This document shows, piece by piece, positions 38,735 to 45,975 of a stretch of DNA of 64,000 nucleotides. The DNA is taken from positions 6,138,325 to 6,202,324 of the forward strand of contig NZ_UPHU01000001.1 of NCBI RefSeq assembly GCF_900566075.1, read 5' to 3'. A program made the translations under genes and the position numbers. Positions within the stretch are counted from its first letter, which is position 1. Each line of letters opens with the position of its first letter. Below the pieces are notes generated by a model that was not told the DNA's origin, searched no databases, and saw only the letters and a program-made list of their open reading frames with translations. The DNA is from Mycobacterium pseudokansasii. GTDB taxonomy: Bacteria; Actinomycetota; Actinomycetes; Mycobacteriales; Mycobacteriaceae.

Positions 38735-39679
38735 GTGCCGAATCGACGCCGACGCAAGCTCTCGACCACCATGAGCGCAGTCGCGGCCCTGGCAGTTGCG
38801 AGTCCTTGTGCATACTTTCTCGTTTACGAATCGACCGCGGGAAGCAAACCGCCCGAGCACCACGAGTTTGTCCGTGCGGCAAGCGTGGCCGATTTGCCCG
38901 GTGAGCTGATGTCGGCCCTGTCGCAAGGGCTTTCGCAGTTCGGTATCAACCTGCCGCCGGTGCCGAGCCTGACCGGCGGCAGTGCCGCCGGTACCGGTCT
39001 GACCAGTCCGGGCCTGACCAGTCCGGGCCTCACCAGCCCGGGGCTGACCAGCCCGGGGCTGACTAGTCCGGGTCTCACCAGCCCGGGCCTGACCAGCCCG
39101 GGCCTGACCAGCCCGACGGGTTTGACGCCGTCGACACCGGGATCGCTGGCCCTGCCGGGTACCACGTTGACGCCACCGACACCGGGGACAGCGGTGAATC
39201 CCGCGCTGACCAGCCCCACCGGAGCGACGCCCGGCCTGACCAGCCCGACGGGGCTGGACCCGGCACTCGGCGGCGGCGCCAACGAGATTCCCATCACGAC
39301 ACCGGCCGGGCTGGACCCGGGGGCCGACGGCACCTACCCGATCCTGGGAGACCCGTCGTTGGGCTACGGGCCGGGAACCGGCTACGGGCCGGCGACCAGC
39401 CCGATCGGCACCGGCGGCGGAGCAGGCAGCAGCGGCGGCGGCGGGCTCCTCAACGACGTGATGCAGGCGGCCAATCAGCTGGGCGCCGGGCAGGCCATCG
39501 ACCTGCTGAAGGGGGTGCTGATGCCGTCGATCATGCAGGCCATCCAGAACGGCGGCGCGGCGGCGCCGGCGGCTGGCGCACCTGCCATCGGTGCACCCGC
39601 CGTGGCCCCGCCCGCGGTGCCGGCGGCCGCCGCACCGGTGGTGGCACCACCGGTAGCGCCGACCACACCGGTCGCCTGA
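38735..39679 (+). CDS. erp: Exported repetitive protein Erp (PirG)
   Basis: 314 residues (284 recalled for Mtb). GTG start with GGAG 6-7 bases upstream. Signal sequence LSTTMSAVAALAVASPCAYF precedes the conserved VADLPGELMSALSQGLSQF segment. Eight contiguous GLTSP pentapeptides follow, then degenerate copies (TGLTPSTPG, GATPGLTSPTGLD), and a C-terminal region with a helix (LNDVMQAANQLGAGQAIDL) and a Pro/Ala-rich tail. Surface-associated protein important for virulence and envelope integrity in Mtb; its repeat number varies between species. Flanked by glf (divergent) and the amidase gene (same strand). Confidence 0.95.
   Translation: MPNRRRRKLSTTMSAVAALAVASPCAYFLVYESTAGSKPPEHHEFVRAASVADLPGELMSALSQGLSQFGINLPPVPSLTGGSAAGTGLTSPGLTSPGLTSPGLTSPGLTSPGLTSPGLTSPGLTSPTGLTPSTPGSLALPGTTLTPPTPGTAVNPALTSPTGATPGLTSPTGLDPALGGGANEIPITTPAGLDPGADGTYPILGDPSLGYGPGTGYGPATSPIGTGGGAGSSGGGGLLNDVMQAANQLGAGQAIDLLKGVLMPSIMQAIQNGGAAAPAAGAPAIGAPAVAPPAVPAAAAPVVAPPVAPTTPVA
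38996..39115 (+). repeat. Eight tandem GLTSP-coding 15-bp units in erp
   Basis: Units of the type GGCCTGACCAGCCCG repeat eight times without interruption, differing only at third positions (GGT/GGC/GGG, CTG/CTC, AGT/AGC). The length of this array is the main variable part of Erp between mycobacterial species, through slippage or recombination. Confidence 0.9.
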
Positions 39680-41505: not shown

Positions 41506-43428
41506 GTGCGCGAGACGCCATATCTGACGATCGATCTGGCTCGGGTGCGCGACAACCTCCAAGCGCTGCGAGCCGCCCTGCCGGAGGCTTCGATTCGCTA
41601 TGCGGTCAAAGCGAACCCGGGCGAACCCATCCTACGGCTGCTCGCGGGCGAAGGCGCCGCATTCGACGTCGCTTCGGTCGGTGAGATCCACGCGTGCCGT
41701 TCCGCCGGGATCGACGGTAGCCTGCTGGCGTTTGGCAACACCATCAAGAAGCCGGCCGCGGTCGGCCATGCGTATGCCGGCGGGGTACGGCGGTTCGTAT
41801 TCGATACCCCCGAAGATCTGGCCGCGATCGCCGAGCATGCTCCCGGAGCCAGCGTGGAATGCCGTATCGCGCCGGCGTTTCCGTCGTCTGTCACGCCGTT
41901 CGGGCACAAATTCGGGTGTGCTCCCGACGGGGCCGCGAATCTGCTGACGCGTGCCCGGCGACTGGGGTTGCGCCCGGCCGCCATCGCCTTCCACGTCGGT
42001 TCCCAACAACTCGACCCCGCAGCGTGGGATCTTGGGATACGTTGTTGTGCAGACATTTTCGAACAGTATGGGGGCGCGTTGGAGGTCAACGCCGGGGGCG
42101 GTTTCCCGATCCCGTATGCGACCGATGCGCCGAAGCTGCCGGTCCTTGCTGACACCATTACTTCCGCGCTGACGCGCTATTTCGGCGCCGATCGTCCCCG
42201 GCTCGTGGTAGAGCCGGGCCGGTTGCTCGTCGGTTCGGCGGGCATCATTGCCGCCGAGGTGGTCTCGGTGCGAACCGGTACCGAGGGCCGGCGTTGGGTG
42301 TACCTCGACATCGGCCGTTACGGCGGTCTTGCCGAGACCGAGAACGAATACCTCCGATATCGCCTGCGTACCGACCGTGACGGCGACCCTGCCGCCGATG
42401 CCGTGGTGGCCGGACCGACCTGCGACGGCGACGACGTGCTCTACCGAAGCTATGCCCTTCCGGTGACGCTGCGCGCCGGCGACGGTGTCCAGATCGAGGA
42501 CGCCGGAGCCTACACCGCGAGCTACGCCTCGGCGGGATTCAATGGATTTTCGCCGTTGCCAACGTATTTCACGAACGATACCGGACCCGGCATAGCCCGC
42601 ACGATCATCGAGGAGCTGGCGCCGGGGCTGAGCCGACATTGGCAGGTCGACGACGTCATCTGCGATGTGCGTACCGAGTTCCAGGAATTGGTGATCGGGC
42701 GAACGGCGCAGGGTGTCACCTTGTTCAGCGGCGGCGAACGGCAGAGCACCGAGTTCAGCCAGCTCGTGTATCACGAGGCGTTGCTGGTCCCGGCACTGCT
42801 GCTGGCGGAGCGGATCGACCGAGTACTGGTCATCGGTTCCGGCGAAGGCGTGGTGAGTCAGCTGGCCGTCGCGGCCGGGGCATCGCATGTCGATCACGTC
42901 GACATCGATCGCGATGCCGTTCGGCTCTGCGCCGAGCACCTGCCCTACGGCTACGCGGTCAGCGAATTGCACCAGGCTGAAAGAGGTTTAGGCCCGGTCA
43001 CCGTGCATTACCGCGACGGATGGGAGTTCGTGCAGCAGTCCACCGAATGCTACGACGTCGTCGTGTTCGATCTGCCCGACGAGCGCACCGGGCCCGCCCA
43101 GCACAACCGGTTGTACGACGTCGACTTCCTCAGGCGATGCCGCGCAATCGGCCATGTCGTCGTGTCCCAAGCCGGCTGCCCGACACTGTGGCGCAACGCG
43201 TCACTGCGCCGGTCTTGGCGGCGCTTTCACGAAACCTTCGACACCGTGGTCTATTTCGGTAGCGACGAGCACGAGTGGGCCTTTCTGTCCGGCCTTTGCG
43301 GTCCCATTCCCGAAGATCCCATCGCGGCGATGACGGCGCGATTGCCCGGGTTGGCGTACCGGCCCCGCACCATCGACGCCGACTCGCTGGCCGGCTGCAC
43401 GGTTGCACCCAAATCACTGCGCGGCTAG
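41506..43428 (+). CDS. PLP decarboxylase-spermidine synthase fusion protein
   Basis: 640 residues, GTG start. Residues 1 to about 365 are a fold-III PLP decarboxylase (ornithine/lysine/diaminopimelate type): Lys35 in RYAVKANPGE binds PLP, AGGGFP (196-201) and EPGR (236-239) hold the phosphate, Cys306 in GPTCDGDD and Tyr336 in GAYTASYASAGFNGF complete the active site. Residues from about 375 are a spermidine-synthase-like aminopropyltransferase: GSGEG (444-448) for the nucleoside, VDHVDIDRDAV, and DLPDERTGP (from Asp522) where the family has its catalytic Asp region. Prediction: makes putrescine or cadaverine and aminopropylates it. Aminopropyl donor synthesis (SpeD) is not in the window. Replaces PE_PGRS62 of Mtb. 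Confidence 0.9.
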   Translation: MRETPYLTIDLARVRDNLQALRAALPEASIRYAVKANPGEPILRLLAGEGAAFDVASVGEIHACRSAGIDGSLLAFGNTIKKPAAVGHAYAGGVRRFVFDTPEDLAAIAEHAPGASVECRIAPAFPSSVTPFGHKFGCAPDGAANLLTRARRLGLRPAAIAFHVGSQQLDPAAWDLGIRCCADIFEQYGGALEVNAGGGFPIPYATDAPKLPVLADTITSALTRYFGADRPRLVVEPGRLLVGSAGIIAAEVVSVRTGTEGRRWVYLDIGRYGGLAETENEYLRYRLRTDRDGDPAADAVVAGPTCDGDDVLYRSYALPVTLRAGDGVQIEDAGAYTASYASAGFNGFSPLPTYFTNDTGPGIARTIIEELAPGLSRHWQVDDVICDVRTEFQELVIGRTAQGVTLFSGGERQSTEFSQLVYHEALLVPALLLAERIDRVLVIGSGEGVVSQLAVAAGASHVDHVDIDRDAVRLCAEHLPYGYAVSELHQAERGLGPVTVHYRDGWEFVQQSTECYDVVVFDLPDERTGPAQHNRLYDVDFLRRCRAIGHVVVSQAGCPTLWRNASLRRSWRRFHETFDTVVYFGSDEHEWAFLSGLCGPIPEDPIAAMTARLPGLAYRPRTIDADSLAGCTVAPKSLRG

Positions 43429-43446
43429 GTGGTGAAAGAGACCACC
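43428..43446. terminator. Short hairpin between convergent polyamine-locus genes
   Basis: GGTGGT (43428-43433) pairs with ACCACC (43441-43446) over a 7-base loop, starting on the last base of the fusion-gene stop. It is the only inverted repeat I see in the 116 bp between the convergent stops. A weak terminator is the simplest reading. Confidence 0.3.
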
Positions 43447-43544
43447 CCGCAAGACTCTAAGACCCACGGCGGTTGTCGTCGAGACGCAGGTTAGCCCGAA
43501 GTCCACTCGCACTTTTCCGCGGCTGCGCGGAACTCGCTGTCGCC

Positions 43545-44000
43545 TCACAGAATCGCCACCGCGACCACGATGCCTAGTGCGAACTGCGCCGCCGCCACGA
43601 TAAGACACTCGTAGCTGTATTCGTCGGCCTGGAACAGCGTATCCATGTCGATTCCGATGACCAGGGTCGCGATCCGCATCATCACCACCTGCGCGGCGAT
43701 GCCCACGACGCCGAAGGTCGCTGACGCCAGCAATCCCTCGCCGAGCCTGCCCGACGACGAATAGATCGCCAGCACCACGATGAGCGCCATGCTCACCATC
43801 CCGGCGGCGGCCACAATGATGGCGTTGGGCTTTCCGGCGCGAACCATCTTGCGCAGCGGCCCGGGCGTCGTGAAGTCGATCGCATGAAACCCGATGATCA
43901 TGAGCACCAGGCCCAGAATCGAGTACAAGACGACGGCGCCGACCCCGCGACCGAGCCAACTCCAGTAGTCCGAATGCAGCGCCACGATGGATGTCGTCAT
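43545..44000 (-). CDS. DUF350 integral membrane protein
   Basis: 151 residues. Four hydrophobic segments: GVGAVVLYSILGLVLMIIGF, AIIVAAAGMVSMALIVVLAI, LASATFGVVGIAAQVVMMRI and CLIVAAAQFALGIVVAVAIL. The pattern FHAIDFTTPGPL after helix 1 and the Asp-containing loop before the last helix (IGIDMDTLFQADEYS) fit the DUF350/YjfL family. DUF350 proteins are encoded next to YjfC-type ligases in E. coli and, as I recall, next to speE in Mtb (Rv2600/Rv2601), which ties the family to polyamines; biochemical function is unknown. It lies 50 bp downstream of the ATP-grasp gene on the same strand. Confidence 0.85.
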   Translation of the reverse strand: MTTSIVALHSDYWSWLGRGVGAVVLYSILGLVLMIIGFHAIDFTTPGPLRKMVRAGKPNAIIVAAAGMVSMALIVVLAIYSSSGRLGEGLLASATFGVVGIAAQVVMMRIATLVIGIDMDTLFQADEYSYECLIVAAAQFALGIVVAVAIL

Positions 44001-44050
44001 CGAAGATCAGCTCCGTTCAGTTCAGCGGAAAGTTCATCCGGCGGACATGT

Positions 44051-45217
44051 TCACTTCAGCGGAATCCGGTGTGGGACAAAGGCGGCGCCATCGTCGGTGA
44101 CCAGTCCGGCGGTCTCCCGGATACCGAGACCGGCCGACGTGTCACCGACGATCCAGGCGCCCAACGCGGGACGCATATCGTCGAATTCCGGTAGCGGATC
44201 CAGCAATTGGTAGACGAAGCCCTCTTCGCCGTAGACGCCGCCGGTGGCGGTCTGCATACCGGCGCCGACGATCGTGATGTTGGCGCCTTCGCGACCCAGC
44301 TTGGGTTTGCGAACGTATTCGGTGAGTTCGTGCGGGTCGTCGATGTAGGCGGGCAGCAGGTTCGGGTGCCCGGGATACATCTCCCACAACACCGCCAGGA
44401 TCGCCTTGTTGGATAACAGTGCCTTCCACAACGGCTCGATCCACATCGTCTGCGGCAGGCTTGATACCACGTGCTTGCCGAACTCGTCATCGAGCACCCA
44501 TTCCCACGGGTGCAGTTTGAAGATGGCCTCGATCGGCGCCTCTTCCAGATCGACGAATCGCTGCAGCGCGGCATCCCAGCCGACGTCTTCGATCATCAAG
44601 CCGACGGTCTGAAAACCGGCTTCAGCCGCGGTCTCCTGCAGGTACGTCGTCGTGATCTGGTCTTCGCCGGTTGCTTCCACGCCCGACCAGGTGAAGTGGA
44701 GTTCGTTGCCGGGCAACAGCTCGGCGACCGCCTTCCAGCGGTCGACGAGCTGTTCGTGCAACGAGTTCCACTGGTCGTCGGCGGGGAACTTATCCTTCAG
44801 CCAGTACCACTGCAGGATTGCGGCTTCCAGCAGTGTGGTCGGGGTGTCGGCGTTGTATTCGAGCAATACAGCCGGCCGGCGACCGTCGTAACGTAAGTCG
44901 AAGCGGCCGTAAACATGTGGATCGGAGCGCCGCCACGATTCGGCGATCGACGGCCAACTCCATTCGGGCAGACCGAAATCGGCGTACCGCTCCATCAGAA
45001 CCACCTGCTCGACGGCATTCAGGCACATCGAGTGCAGCAGTTCGACGTCGGCTTCCAGCGCCAGGATCTCGTCCATGTCGAACTCGTAGTACACCGACTC
45101 GTCCCAGTACGGCCGGTCGGCGCCGGTCGCATCGCGCGCGGGTGTGCCGTACACCAGGCCTTGCGATTCGACGATGGATCGCCAGTTGGGACGTGGCTGT
45201 GTCCTGGCGCGTTTCAC
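44051..45217 (-). CDS. Glutathionylspermidine-synthase-type ATP-grasp ligase (YgiC/YjfC-like)
   Basis: 388 residues from a GTG that overlaps the previous stop (GTGA); the frame extending to 45520 is an artefact. Matches the stand-alone synthetase domain of glutathionylspermidine synthases (E. coli YgiC/YjfC are of similar length and lack the amidase domain): GRFDLRYDGRRPAVLLEYNA, DTPTTLLEAA, KLHPWEWVLDDEFG, WIEPLWKALLSNKAILAVLW, HPNLLPAY, and KPKLGREGANI near residue 300 as the nucleotide/metal site. The family forms an amide bond between a carboxylate and a polyamine amine with ATP. Mycobacteria use mycothiol, so the acyl partner is probably not glutathione. Co-operonic with the YgiB-like and DUF350 genes. 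Confidence 0.88.
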   Translation of the reverse strand: MKRARTQPRPNWRSIVESQGLVYGTPARDATGADRPYWDESVYYEFDMDEILALEADVELLHSMCLNAVEQVVLMERYADFGLPEWSWPSIAESWRRSDPHVYGRFDLRYDGRRPAVLLEYNADTPTTLLEAAILQWYWLKDKFPADDQWNSLHEQLVDRWKAVAELLPGNELHFTWSGVEATGEDQITTTYLQETAAEAGFQTVGLMIEDVGWDAALQRFVDLEEAPIEAIFKLHPWEWVLDDEFGKHVVSSLPQTMWIEPLWKALLSNKAILAVLWEMYPGHPNLLPAYIDDPHELTEYVRKPKLGREGANITIVGAGMQTATGGVYGEEGFVYQLLDPLPEFDDMRPALGAWIVGDTSAGLGIRETAGLVTDDGAAFVPHRIPLK

Positions 45218-45975
45218 GAGCCGCTGCTCCCGCCGCCGCCCTTGCCGCCGCTGCCGCCGAGCCCGCCGCGCGAAATGGTGGTACCGGACTTGGTGGTGAT
45301 CGTGGCACCCTTCGGCGCAACCGTGGTGCCACCGCTCGGGCGTTGACCGACCGTCCCGGAGCTGCCGTAGTAGTACCGGTACTGATGTCCGCCGTAGAAG
45401 AAGAAGCCGTTGAGTCCCGCGGTATGGCCGGTGCAGTAGCTGTCGGGGACGATCACCGGTTGACCATTCGGGTCGTCCTGGACACATTGGGCGGTGACAT
45501 GCTCGGGCGTCAACAACCAATACCCGAGGCCAGCCACCAGACCCACCACCCCGACACCGGCCGCGGCGCCCATCAGGACACGCTTCTGCTTGGCGCGCTT
45601 GGCCTCCGCCTCGAGCCGAGCCTCTTCGATCTCGCGCTGCTTGTCCTCGTACTTCCGTCGCGCCCGCAGTTCGGCCGGCGTCGGGGGACGCGGCCGCGCG
45701 GTTTCCGCGTCCTGATACTGGATGCTGCCGCCGGCCCGGCGCTTGGCGGGTGCGTCCGCTGCTGAATCGACGTCCGGCGCACGCGGCGCCTCGTCGGCCC
45801 GCTCAGCCGCCGCGACGGGCTCGTTTTCCACCACCGGCTGTGTCTCGTCGGAACGCTCGGCAGCAGCGGCGGGCTCATCCTCCGGTGCCGGTTGGGCATC
45901 CTCGCGCCGCCCGGCGGTCCCGCTCTGGTTGTCGTCGGGTCGGCCGCGGACGGGTGGGTCTGGTTCCGGCCCCAC
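45214..45975 (-). CDS. YgiB-like single-pass membrane protein with Gly-rich tail
   Basis: 253 residues; GTG at 45975 chosen because GGAGGA (45982-45987) precedes it. Residues 1-105 are acidic, Pro/Ala-rich and likely disordered (QPAPEDEPAAAAERSDET). A charged helix or coiled coil follows (AELRARRKYEDKQREIEEAR), then one membrane helix (VLMGAAAGVGVVGLVAGLGY). The outer part has two cysteines (TAQCVQDD, DSYCTGH), a Tyr-rich stretch (YGGHQYRYYYGSSG) and an ending like E. coli YgiB/DUF1190 (VAPKGATITTKSGTTISRGG then a Gly/Ser tail). YgiB is encoded beside YgiC in E. coli, matching the layout here. The anchor differs: YgiB has a lipoprotein-type N-terminus. Confidence 0.7.
   Translation of the reverse strand: MGPEPDPPVRGRPDDNQSGTAGRREDAQPAPEDEPAAAAERSDETQPVVENEPVAAAERADEAPRAPDVDSAADAPAKRRAGGSIQYQDAETARPRPPTPAELRARRKYEDKQREIEEARLEAEAKRAKQKRVLMGAAAGVGVVGLVAGLGYWLLTPEHVTAQCVQDDPNGQPVIVPDSYCTGHTAGLNGFFFYGGHQYRYYYGSSGTVGQRPSGGTTVAPKGATITTKSGTTISRGGLGGSGGKGGGGSSGS

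Follow-up and report, generated by a model that had tools for sequence, protein, structure and literature searches.

What would a mycobacterium make of an enzyme that looks built for polyamine synthesis, encoded beside a ligase of a family that is annotated as joining spermidine to peptides? The question is raised by a locus at positions 41506-45975 of a 64-kb window (the whole stretch of DNA analysed, lying in the larger contig of a two-contig, 6.4 Mb genome) of Mycobacterium pseudokansasii, where a forward-strand gene for a fused decarboxylase-spermidine synthase is convergent with a minus-strand operon in the order YgiB-like protein, YgiC/YjfC-type ATP-grasp ligase and DUF350 membrane protein. 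Such a pairing of the two enzymes is shared by many slow-growing mycobacteria. An earlier sequence-only reading had placed these four genes here, and the open reading frames (ORFs), Pfam profiles and recurrence in other genomes bear it out. Tentatively, and with a little less than even confidence, we favour a polyamine-to-protein conjugation module, in which the amine would come from the fusion and the tail of the YgiB-like partner would be the acceptor. The proposal starts from observed gene content, co-occurrence, loss of the SpeD (S-adenosylmethionine (AdoMet) decarboxylase) domain, retained active sites and a tail signature. The features are as follows:

41506-43428, + strand: fusion decarboxylase-spermidine synthase, 640 aa (Orn_Arg_deC_N, E 5.4e-39; Orn_DAP_Arg_deC, 2.6e-15; Spermine_synth, 1.5e-12)
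41506..42579, + strand: N-terminal half of the fusion, residues 1-358, alanine-racemase-fold pyridoxal phosphate (PLP) decarboxylase of the ornithine/lysine/arginine type
42580..43428, + strand: C-terminal half of the fusion, residues 359-640, spermidine-synthase-type aminopropyltransferase (Spermine_synth, 1.5e-12; PDB matches)
43545-44000, - strand: DUF350 (YjfL-type) membrane protein, 151 aa (PF03994, E 6.6e-17, 62.3 bits, cut-off 26)
44051-45217, - strand: YgiC/YjfC-type ATP-grasp ligase, 388 aa, GTG start (GSP_synth PF03738, E 5.5e-149)
45214-45975, - strand: YgiB-like partner, 253 aa, GTG start (ORF with GGAGGAG Shine-Dalgarno; alignment with homologues)
45217..45282, - strand: C-terminal tail of the partner, TTISRGGLGGSGGKGGGGSSGS, proposed acceptor through its terminal carboxylate

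The ligase and the tail of its partner

The GTG of the ligase overlaps the stop codon of the YgiB-like gene, which has its GGAGGAG upstream of its own GTG. The ligase covers the PF03738 profile from 1 to 371 of 371, with no other family above its cut-off and no amidase domain, is 41% identical to Escherichia coli YgiC over 393 columns and matches PDB 7uk8 (E 8.8e-89). Conserved ATP and metal ligands had been named as a check on the sequence-only reading, and all 18 inspected positions, which we take to be the ATP/metal and neighbouring sites, are identical in YgiC, YjfC and 57 of 57 mycobacterial rows (L084 and L109 among these rows being the same contig). A DTPT segment, as in YgiC/YjfC, stands where glutathionylspermidine synthetase has DSAS and fits an acceptor other than glutathione. 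By its sequence the ligase belongs with the YgiC/YjfC family and may ligate spermidine. RefSeq labels E. coli YgiC and YjfC as peptide--spermidine ligases, an activity credited to Pederick 2023 in the excerpted text of PMC12568646, and the ligase chemistry of the module is taken, by analogy, from this annotation and the literature on the E. coli homologues.

The partner of the ligase has a basic juxtamembrane stretch, one hydrophobic segment, a two-Cys domain with YRYYYG and a Gly/Ser-rich C-terminus. It matches no Pfam family at E up to 1, and so not DUF1190; adjoining the ligase, with a C-terminal RGG[FYLI]G tail and small end residues, it probably works like YgiB without being classed as DUF1190. 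Homologues at E<=1e-3 number 769 among 7997 candidates scored, and the 120 listed carry either no Pfam label or PF28211.1.

We know of no physiological acceptor of the YgiC/YjfC ligases, and the end of this neighbour is conserved over a wide range of bacteria. The window partner tail holds TISRGGLG and finishes SSGS, with the corresponding segments being TVTRGGFG (end MGG) in E. coli YgiB and TVSRGGYG (end WGG) in YjfM; shuffling the last 60 residues of the two E. coli proteins returned the pattern 0 and 8 times, respectively, in 200,000. Of 56 mycobacterial partners taken, 55 were counted (L064 was not parsable), all with the motif 9-18 residues before the end and 54 ending in GS (52) or GG (2). 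The motif is also present in 120/120 listed homologues, a count biased by a ranking profile that includes the tail, while the terminal pair, less affected, is GS in 63 and GG in 57. At 27 further ligase loci, 20 from Actinomycetota (L191 in the genus, L192 in the family) and seven from proteobacterial and Deinococcus plasmids (L211, with no ligase by tblastn, L219 and L220 left out), a neighbour with [RQ]xG[FLW] was found in every case, though this count is partly circular, a Gly-rich motif having served to pick the partner out from the other neighbours. That choice took no account of the final two residues, which are GG at 23 loci, GS at two, SS at one and HA at one. Among 1013 other frames of these loci (stop-to-stop, 60 aa or more, mostly non-genes), 10 had a terminal GG, as did one of 99 E. 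coli coding sequences. Next to a ligase that activates carboxylates, conservation of the free end is the pattern expected of an acceptor. The Gly-rich tail had earlier been listed as one possible acceptor; the terminal Gly-Gly, shared across phyla, strengthens that suggestion, and the tail is best described as a candidate.

In the proposed mechanism the ligase would activate the C-terminal carboxylate of the neighbouring single-pass YgiB-like protein and join its tail, ...RGGxG...Gly-Ser (Gly-Gly in most other bacteria examined), to a polyamine, much as glutathionylspermidine synthetase acts on glutathione at its Gly carboxylate. The tail, now capped and positively charged, would go on to the envelope, and the DUF350 protein would serve as the membrane partner; by positive-inside reasoning, the basic stretch and hydrophobic segment suggest that the tail lies outside. 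It is somewhat unlikely that the polyamine goes instead to another acceptor (a peptidoglycan precursor, a mycothiol-related compound or another peptide), with the GG tail as a docking or sorting signal. Such an acceptor would suit the related GspS, which acts on a small peptide, glutathione, the low complexity of the partner tail and an export topology that is awkward for a cytosolic reaction, but the last two residues are conserved across phyla and a docking signal need not occupy the free end.

Loss of the AdoMet decarboxylase domain from the fusion

In a scan of named genomes, 80 loci were taken of 207 stretches encoding a relative, 50 with SpeD and 30 without. The former come from the Pseudonocardiaceae, Segniliparus, Smaragdicoccus, four fast-grower-type Mycolicibacterium/Mycobacterium, M. 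talmoniae, M. kyorinense and two metagenome-assembled genomes (MAGs), and the latter are all Mycobacterium fusions. The gap between decarboxylase and synthase is 334-574 bp in SpeD-bearing loci with both enzymes as against -9 to +3 bp in the fused ones, and the junction at 42579/42580 marks the place that a SpeD domain some 110 residues long occupies in relatives. Genomes G005, G149 and G157 have the decarboxylase as a separate gene, then SpeD, then spermidine synthase, with the last two joined in one 411-aa ORF in G157 (locus L102). A tree of 89 sequences, built by a short search without bootstrap and with M. talmoniae left out, separates the 40 SpeD-less ones from the rest by a single branch (SH-aLRT 88), and SpeD state changes once compared to a shuffled mean of 29.4; the row nearest to that of the window is G057, then G091, G074, M. 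gastri and G158. Judged from these sequences, the SpeD domain is cleanly lost once, on one branch, from an ancestral arrangement of ornithine decarboxylase (ODC), SpeD and spermidine synthase (SpdSyn). The unfused form is widespread in Pseudonocardiaceae, and thus beyond mycobacteria.

Among 198 genomes of the genus Mycobacterium sampled for co-occurrence, SpeD (PF02675) was matched in six, with controls matched in 8 of 14. The PF02675 search of the window's genome returned no SpeD match, likewise on repetition, which rejects a SpeD encoded elsewhere in it, and no match was found in 26 of the 27 genomes with an intact fusion. The exception, G110, has a SpeD-like protein (L036 1255-1767, E 4.8e-11) followed by an uncharacterised ORF; this weak match lacks the ESH motif, the usual processing-site motif of AdoMet decarboxylase, and was not counted as one. 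A search for class 2 AdoMet decarboxylase (PF01536) matched nowhere, controls included, and is uninformative either way. Because the fusion is without the SpeD domain kept by its relatives and the genome is without a SpeD match, a complete spermidine route is not supported, nor, as first worded, is the sequence-only reading of a dedicated polyamine maker. Clear SpeD matches occur in three of the 55 ligase-bearing genomes of the sample (G005, G149 and G157; G110 has the weak match only), and home-made spermidine from a SpeD route is therefore unlikely to be the amine in most of them.

Other synthase genes were noted in passing. SpeD-spermidine synthase occurs without an adjoining decarboxylase at L118 (M. 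kyorinense) and L073 (G117), and the window's genome holds two further spermidine-synthase domains, C1:2430775-2431263 and C1:6123796-6124194, the second about 14 kb upstream of the window and with similar matches in four near relatives. At L106 and at two loci of Pseudonocardiaceae, the genes around those for decarboxylase, SpeD and synthase, which include a sodium symporter and a lytic transglycosylase, offered no clue.

Both halves of the fusion retain their active sites. The residue comparison comprised 91 synthase and 89 decarboxylase sequences (L073 and L118 contributing no decarboxylase), with duplicates (L104, L109, L112, L117), a broken locus (L056), one with the decarboxylase in two frames (L108), a distant one (L074) and loci of identical synthase sequence dropped; the residue roles are those of ODC and SpdSyn structures. 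The decarboxylase half retains K35, H163, E236, R239, C306, D307 and Y336, and its specificity segment, YGGLAETENEY, has invariant E277, E279 and E281, with a Glu at the site of Asp332 in ODCs. It is nearest to Lys/Orn decarboxylases in sequence and structure matches (the structure matches listed all concern this half), and could accept ornithine, lysine or arginine. In the synthase half, Y422, H423, E424, E447, D466, D504, D522, D525 and Q555, which the alignment maps to what are presumably donor binding and catalysis, are unchanged in 40/40 SpeD-less sequences; one SpeD-bearing sequence has Glu at 525. Neither half has a fixed difference between SpeD-bearing and SpeD-less sequences, and across all of them 57 positions of the synthase and 64 of the decarboxylase do not vary. 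E447, whose counterpart in known enzymes we take to contact the aminopropyl end of decarboxylated AdoMet (dcAdoMet), is identical in 51 SpeD-bearing and 40 SpeD-less sequences, and such constancy of the acidic residue at the aminopropyl end disfavours direct use of AdoMet.

Selection on the two halves is also similar, with a median pairwise ratio of nonsynonymous to synonymous substitution rates (dN/dS) in the SpeD-less set (pairs with dS between 0.1 and 1.5) of 0.188 for the synthase half and 0.199 for the decarboxylase half, compared to 0.174 for the flanking HAD gene, 0.160 for PGRP and 0.074 for the ligase. The values in six SpeD-bearing mycobacteria (15 pairs) are 0.150 for the synthase and 0.175 for the decarboxylase. 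The synthase half is under purifying selection, with at most slight relaxation after SpeD loss, and the dN/dS and the invariant residues lend no support to its decay.

The fused clade thereby poses a puzzle, in that selection kept an aminopropyltransferase after the donor-making domain went, a sign either of a dcAdoMet source yet to be recognised or of some other chemistry. The simplest account of the retained synthase half is dcAdoMet from an unrecognised enzyme. For the conjugation module that we favour, the first half of the fusion would make a diamine and the second would aminopropylate it, still using dcAdoMet, which, with the AdoMet decarboxylase domain lost, must come from a source not yet recognised. 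It is unlikely that the fusion has been reduced to making diamines, with a synthase half that holds or hands over the diamine and a ligase that uses putrescine, cadaverine or agmatine. The want of a SpeD match in 26/27 fusion-bearing genomes, the weak G110 match having no ESH, is what such a loss of function would leave, but the donor-site and catalytic residues are unchanged in all 40 SpeD-less sequences and, long divergence notwithstanding, the synthase dN/dS has stayed close to the decarboxylase value.

Association of the fusion with the ligase operon

The PF03738 ligase is present in 55 of the 198 genomes, and the triplet of YgiB-like, ligase and DUF350 genes in all 55. An intact full-length fusion occurs in 27, each with the ligase, and in none of the 143 ligase-free genomes (Fisher p 2.6e-18, kinship uncorrected). 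The order PGRP - fusion> ... <DUF350 <ligase <YgiB-like <HAD is found on a single contig in 24 of these 27, and in the remaining three (G007, G010 and G015) the fusion and triplet are split between contigs of draft assemblies. A genome survey was the check proposed with the sequence-only reading, and the co-occurring module emerges from it intact; recurrence in many genomes and protein clusters also rules out a chimera of a single assembly. Two genomes carry traces of loss: G089 has the fusion in three broken pieces with internal stops, with the ligase, DUF350 and YgiB-like genes gone from the site, and G105 has just a DUF350 fragment left there, with the fusion and ligase gone. Joint loss of the fusion and the triplet fits a shared function, though the events are few.

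It is improbable that the fusion and triplet are neighbours by descent only and serve separate processes. The triplet stands without an intact fusion in 28 of the 55 ligase genomes (among them G005, with separate decarboxylase, SpeD and synthase genes adjoining the triplet), in G149 and G157 these three genes lie elsewhere in the genome, away from the triplet, and the Pseudonocardiaceae flanks (up to 10 kb) contain no triplet match, all as separate processes would allow. The lack of any intact fusion among ligase-free genomes and the loss of both in G089 speak against it, as does the linkage to the triplet in M. talmoniae and a MAG that keep SpeD. A SpeD-free route, in which the synthase half moves the 3-amino-3-carboxypropyl group of AdoMet to the diamine and the decarboxylase removes the carboxylate (a carboxyspermidine-like scheme), would explain the joining of the halves upon SpeD loss and accommodate the three invariant Glu of the specificity segment and the decarboxylase fold shared with carboxyspermidine decarboxylases, but is highly improbable given the unchanged E447, the zero fixed differences in either half and a decarboxylase nearest to Lys/Orn decarboxylases.

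The locus is flanked by a PGRP/LGFP amidase on one side and a HAD hydrolase on the other (Pfam), presumably the Rv3811 and Rv3813c equivalents, as named in the earlier reading. That reading also took the locus to replace PE_PGRS62. M. gordonae (L049) has a PE-family gene separating the fusion from DUF350, and in G105 (L187) PE genes stand beside the DUF350 remnant (both by Pfam). Given these arrangements, the polyamine locus and PE genes do not exclude each other at the level of the PE family, and the replacement is not supported.

Several side observations concern the site. The G105 remnant (L187 5004-5162), beside the PE genes, corresponds to DUF350 residues 99-151 at 85% identity, a trace of past presence. 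At L085 8197-8662 (G076) DUF350 is in two frames, and one TAG lies inside the ligase match at G031:C1:4131919-4133040, each a sign of decay of the module in a single species or else a sequencing error. Upstream of the PGRP gene, at 38735-39679 of the window, is a secreted-looking protein with GLTSP repeats (Pfam GLTT).

A number of findings weigh against conjugation of a fusion-derived polyamine to the partner tail. On the side of the amine, 25 of the 55 ligase-bearing genomes have neither an intact fusion nor SpeD, making the ligase independent of this amine source, no dcAdoMet source was found by the PF02675 search of the window's genome, and the synthase-half dN/dS is slightly higher in SpeD-less (0.188) than in SpeD-bearing mycobacteria (0.150). 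On the side of the acceptor, mycobacterial tails end in Ser rather than Gly in 53 of the 55 parsed, two of the 27 further loci (L204, SS; L217, HA) have no G[GS] end, the distant ligases L219 (33% identical) and L220 (26%) are without such a tailed partner, and to the partial circularity of the motif count is added the topology: with the tail predicted outside and the ligase expected to be cytosolic, ligation would have to precede export. The acceptor, the exact amine and the donor source we infer, together with the envelope role, for which the membrane parts and the association given in the excerpts of Ravi et al. 2024 are the grounds. Of the first interpretation, the module, the ligase residues and the E. 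coli parallel are supported, and the complete polyamine maker and the PE_PGRS62 replacement are not.

If conjugation to the tail is true, a bacterial envelope protein is modified at its C-terminus by a polyamine, with the shared terminal Gly-Gly of the neighbour naming one candidate acceptor for YgiC/YjfC ligases. More generally, it is possible, if doubtful, that YgiC-type ligases are protein-polyaminylation enzymes acting on the C-terminal Gly/Ser of their partners, the GG tail being a bacterial counterpart of a ubiquitin-like tail and the amine in slow-growing mycobacteria coming from a fusion that works without a known AdoMet decarboxylase.

Comparison with known systems

As far as the excerpted sources go, the linkage of the families, the ligase activity of YgiC/YjfC and fusions of AdoMet decarboxylase (AdoMetDC) with aminopropyltransferase are already known. 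In the available portion of Ravi et al. 2024 (PMC11237479), ATP-grasp proteins like glutathionylspermidine synthetase (GSS), DUF350, DUF1190 and AdoMet decarboxylase are linked in PspA/polyamine operons and polyamines are proposed to act on membranes; that portion describes no decarboxylase-synthase fusion, tail signature or acceptor. The excerpts of PMC11841054 refer to earlier reports of de novo spermine synthesis in Mycobacterium and name Rv2601 as a spermidine synthase. A literature search, mainly at the level of abstracts, found no description of a SpeD-less decarboxylase-synthase fusion or of a GG-tail acceptor, though prior mention is possible. The SpeD loss with a retained synthase half and the shared C-terminal signature of the ligase partners go beyond the first reading of the locus.

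The excerpted texts of PMC11107197 and PMC10407285 treat, respectively, AdoMetDC-aminopropyltransferase fusions in Pelagibacter and SpeD neofunctionalisation. The SpeD-SpdSyn ORF of L102 is like these fusions, whereas the fused clade is without SpeD and has the PLP decarboxylase joined directly to the synthase. The bifunctional GspSA shares with the window ligase its ATP-grasp family and general reaction type but differs in having an amidase domain and DSAS, where the window ligase has DTPT and no amidase.

The closest parallels, proposed in the sequence-only reading and borne out by gene annotation, are the E. coli ygiB-ygiC and yjfL-yjfM-yjfC sets, in which YgiC/YjfC accompany YgiB/YjfM (DUF1190) and YjfL (DUF350). 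The likeness extends from the ligase (the 41% identity to YgiC and the same 18 residues) to the ligase-adjacent partner with its T[VI]xRGG[FYL]G tail and, in the yjf set, to the DUF350 gene. The E. coli partners have a lipobox-like Cys; the window partner has none, with a hydrophobic segment, a GS end and no Pfam family. Compared to the E. coli sets, the window locus, with no PspA-like gene among its four genes, adds the polyamine-enzyme fusion.

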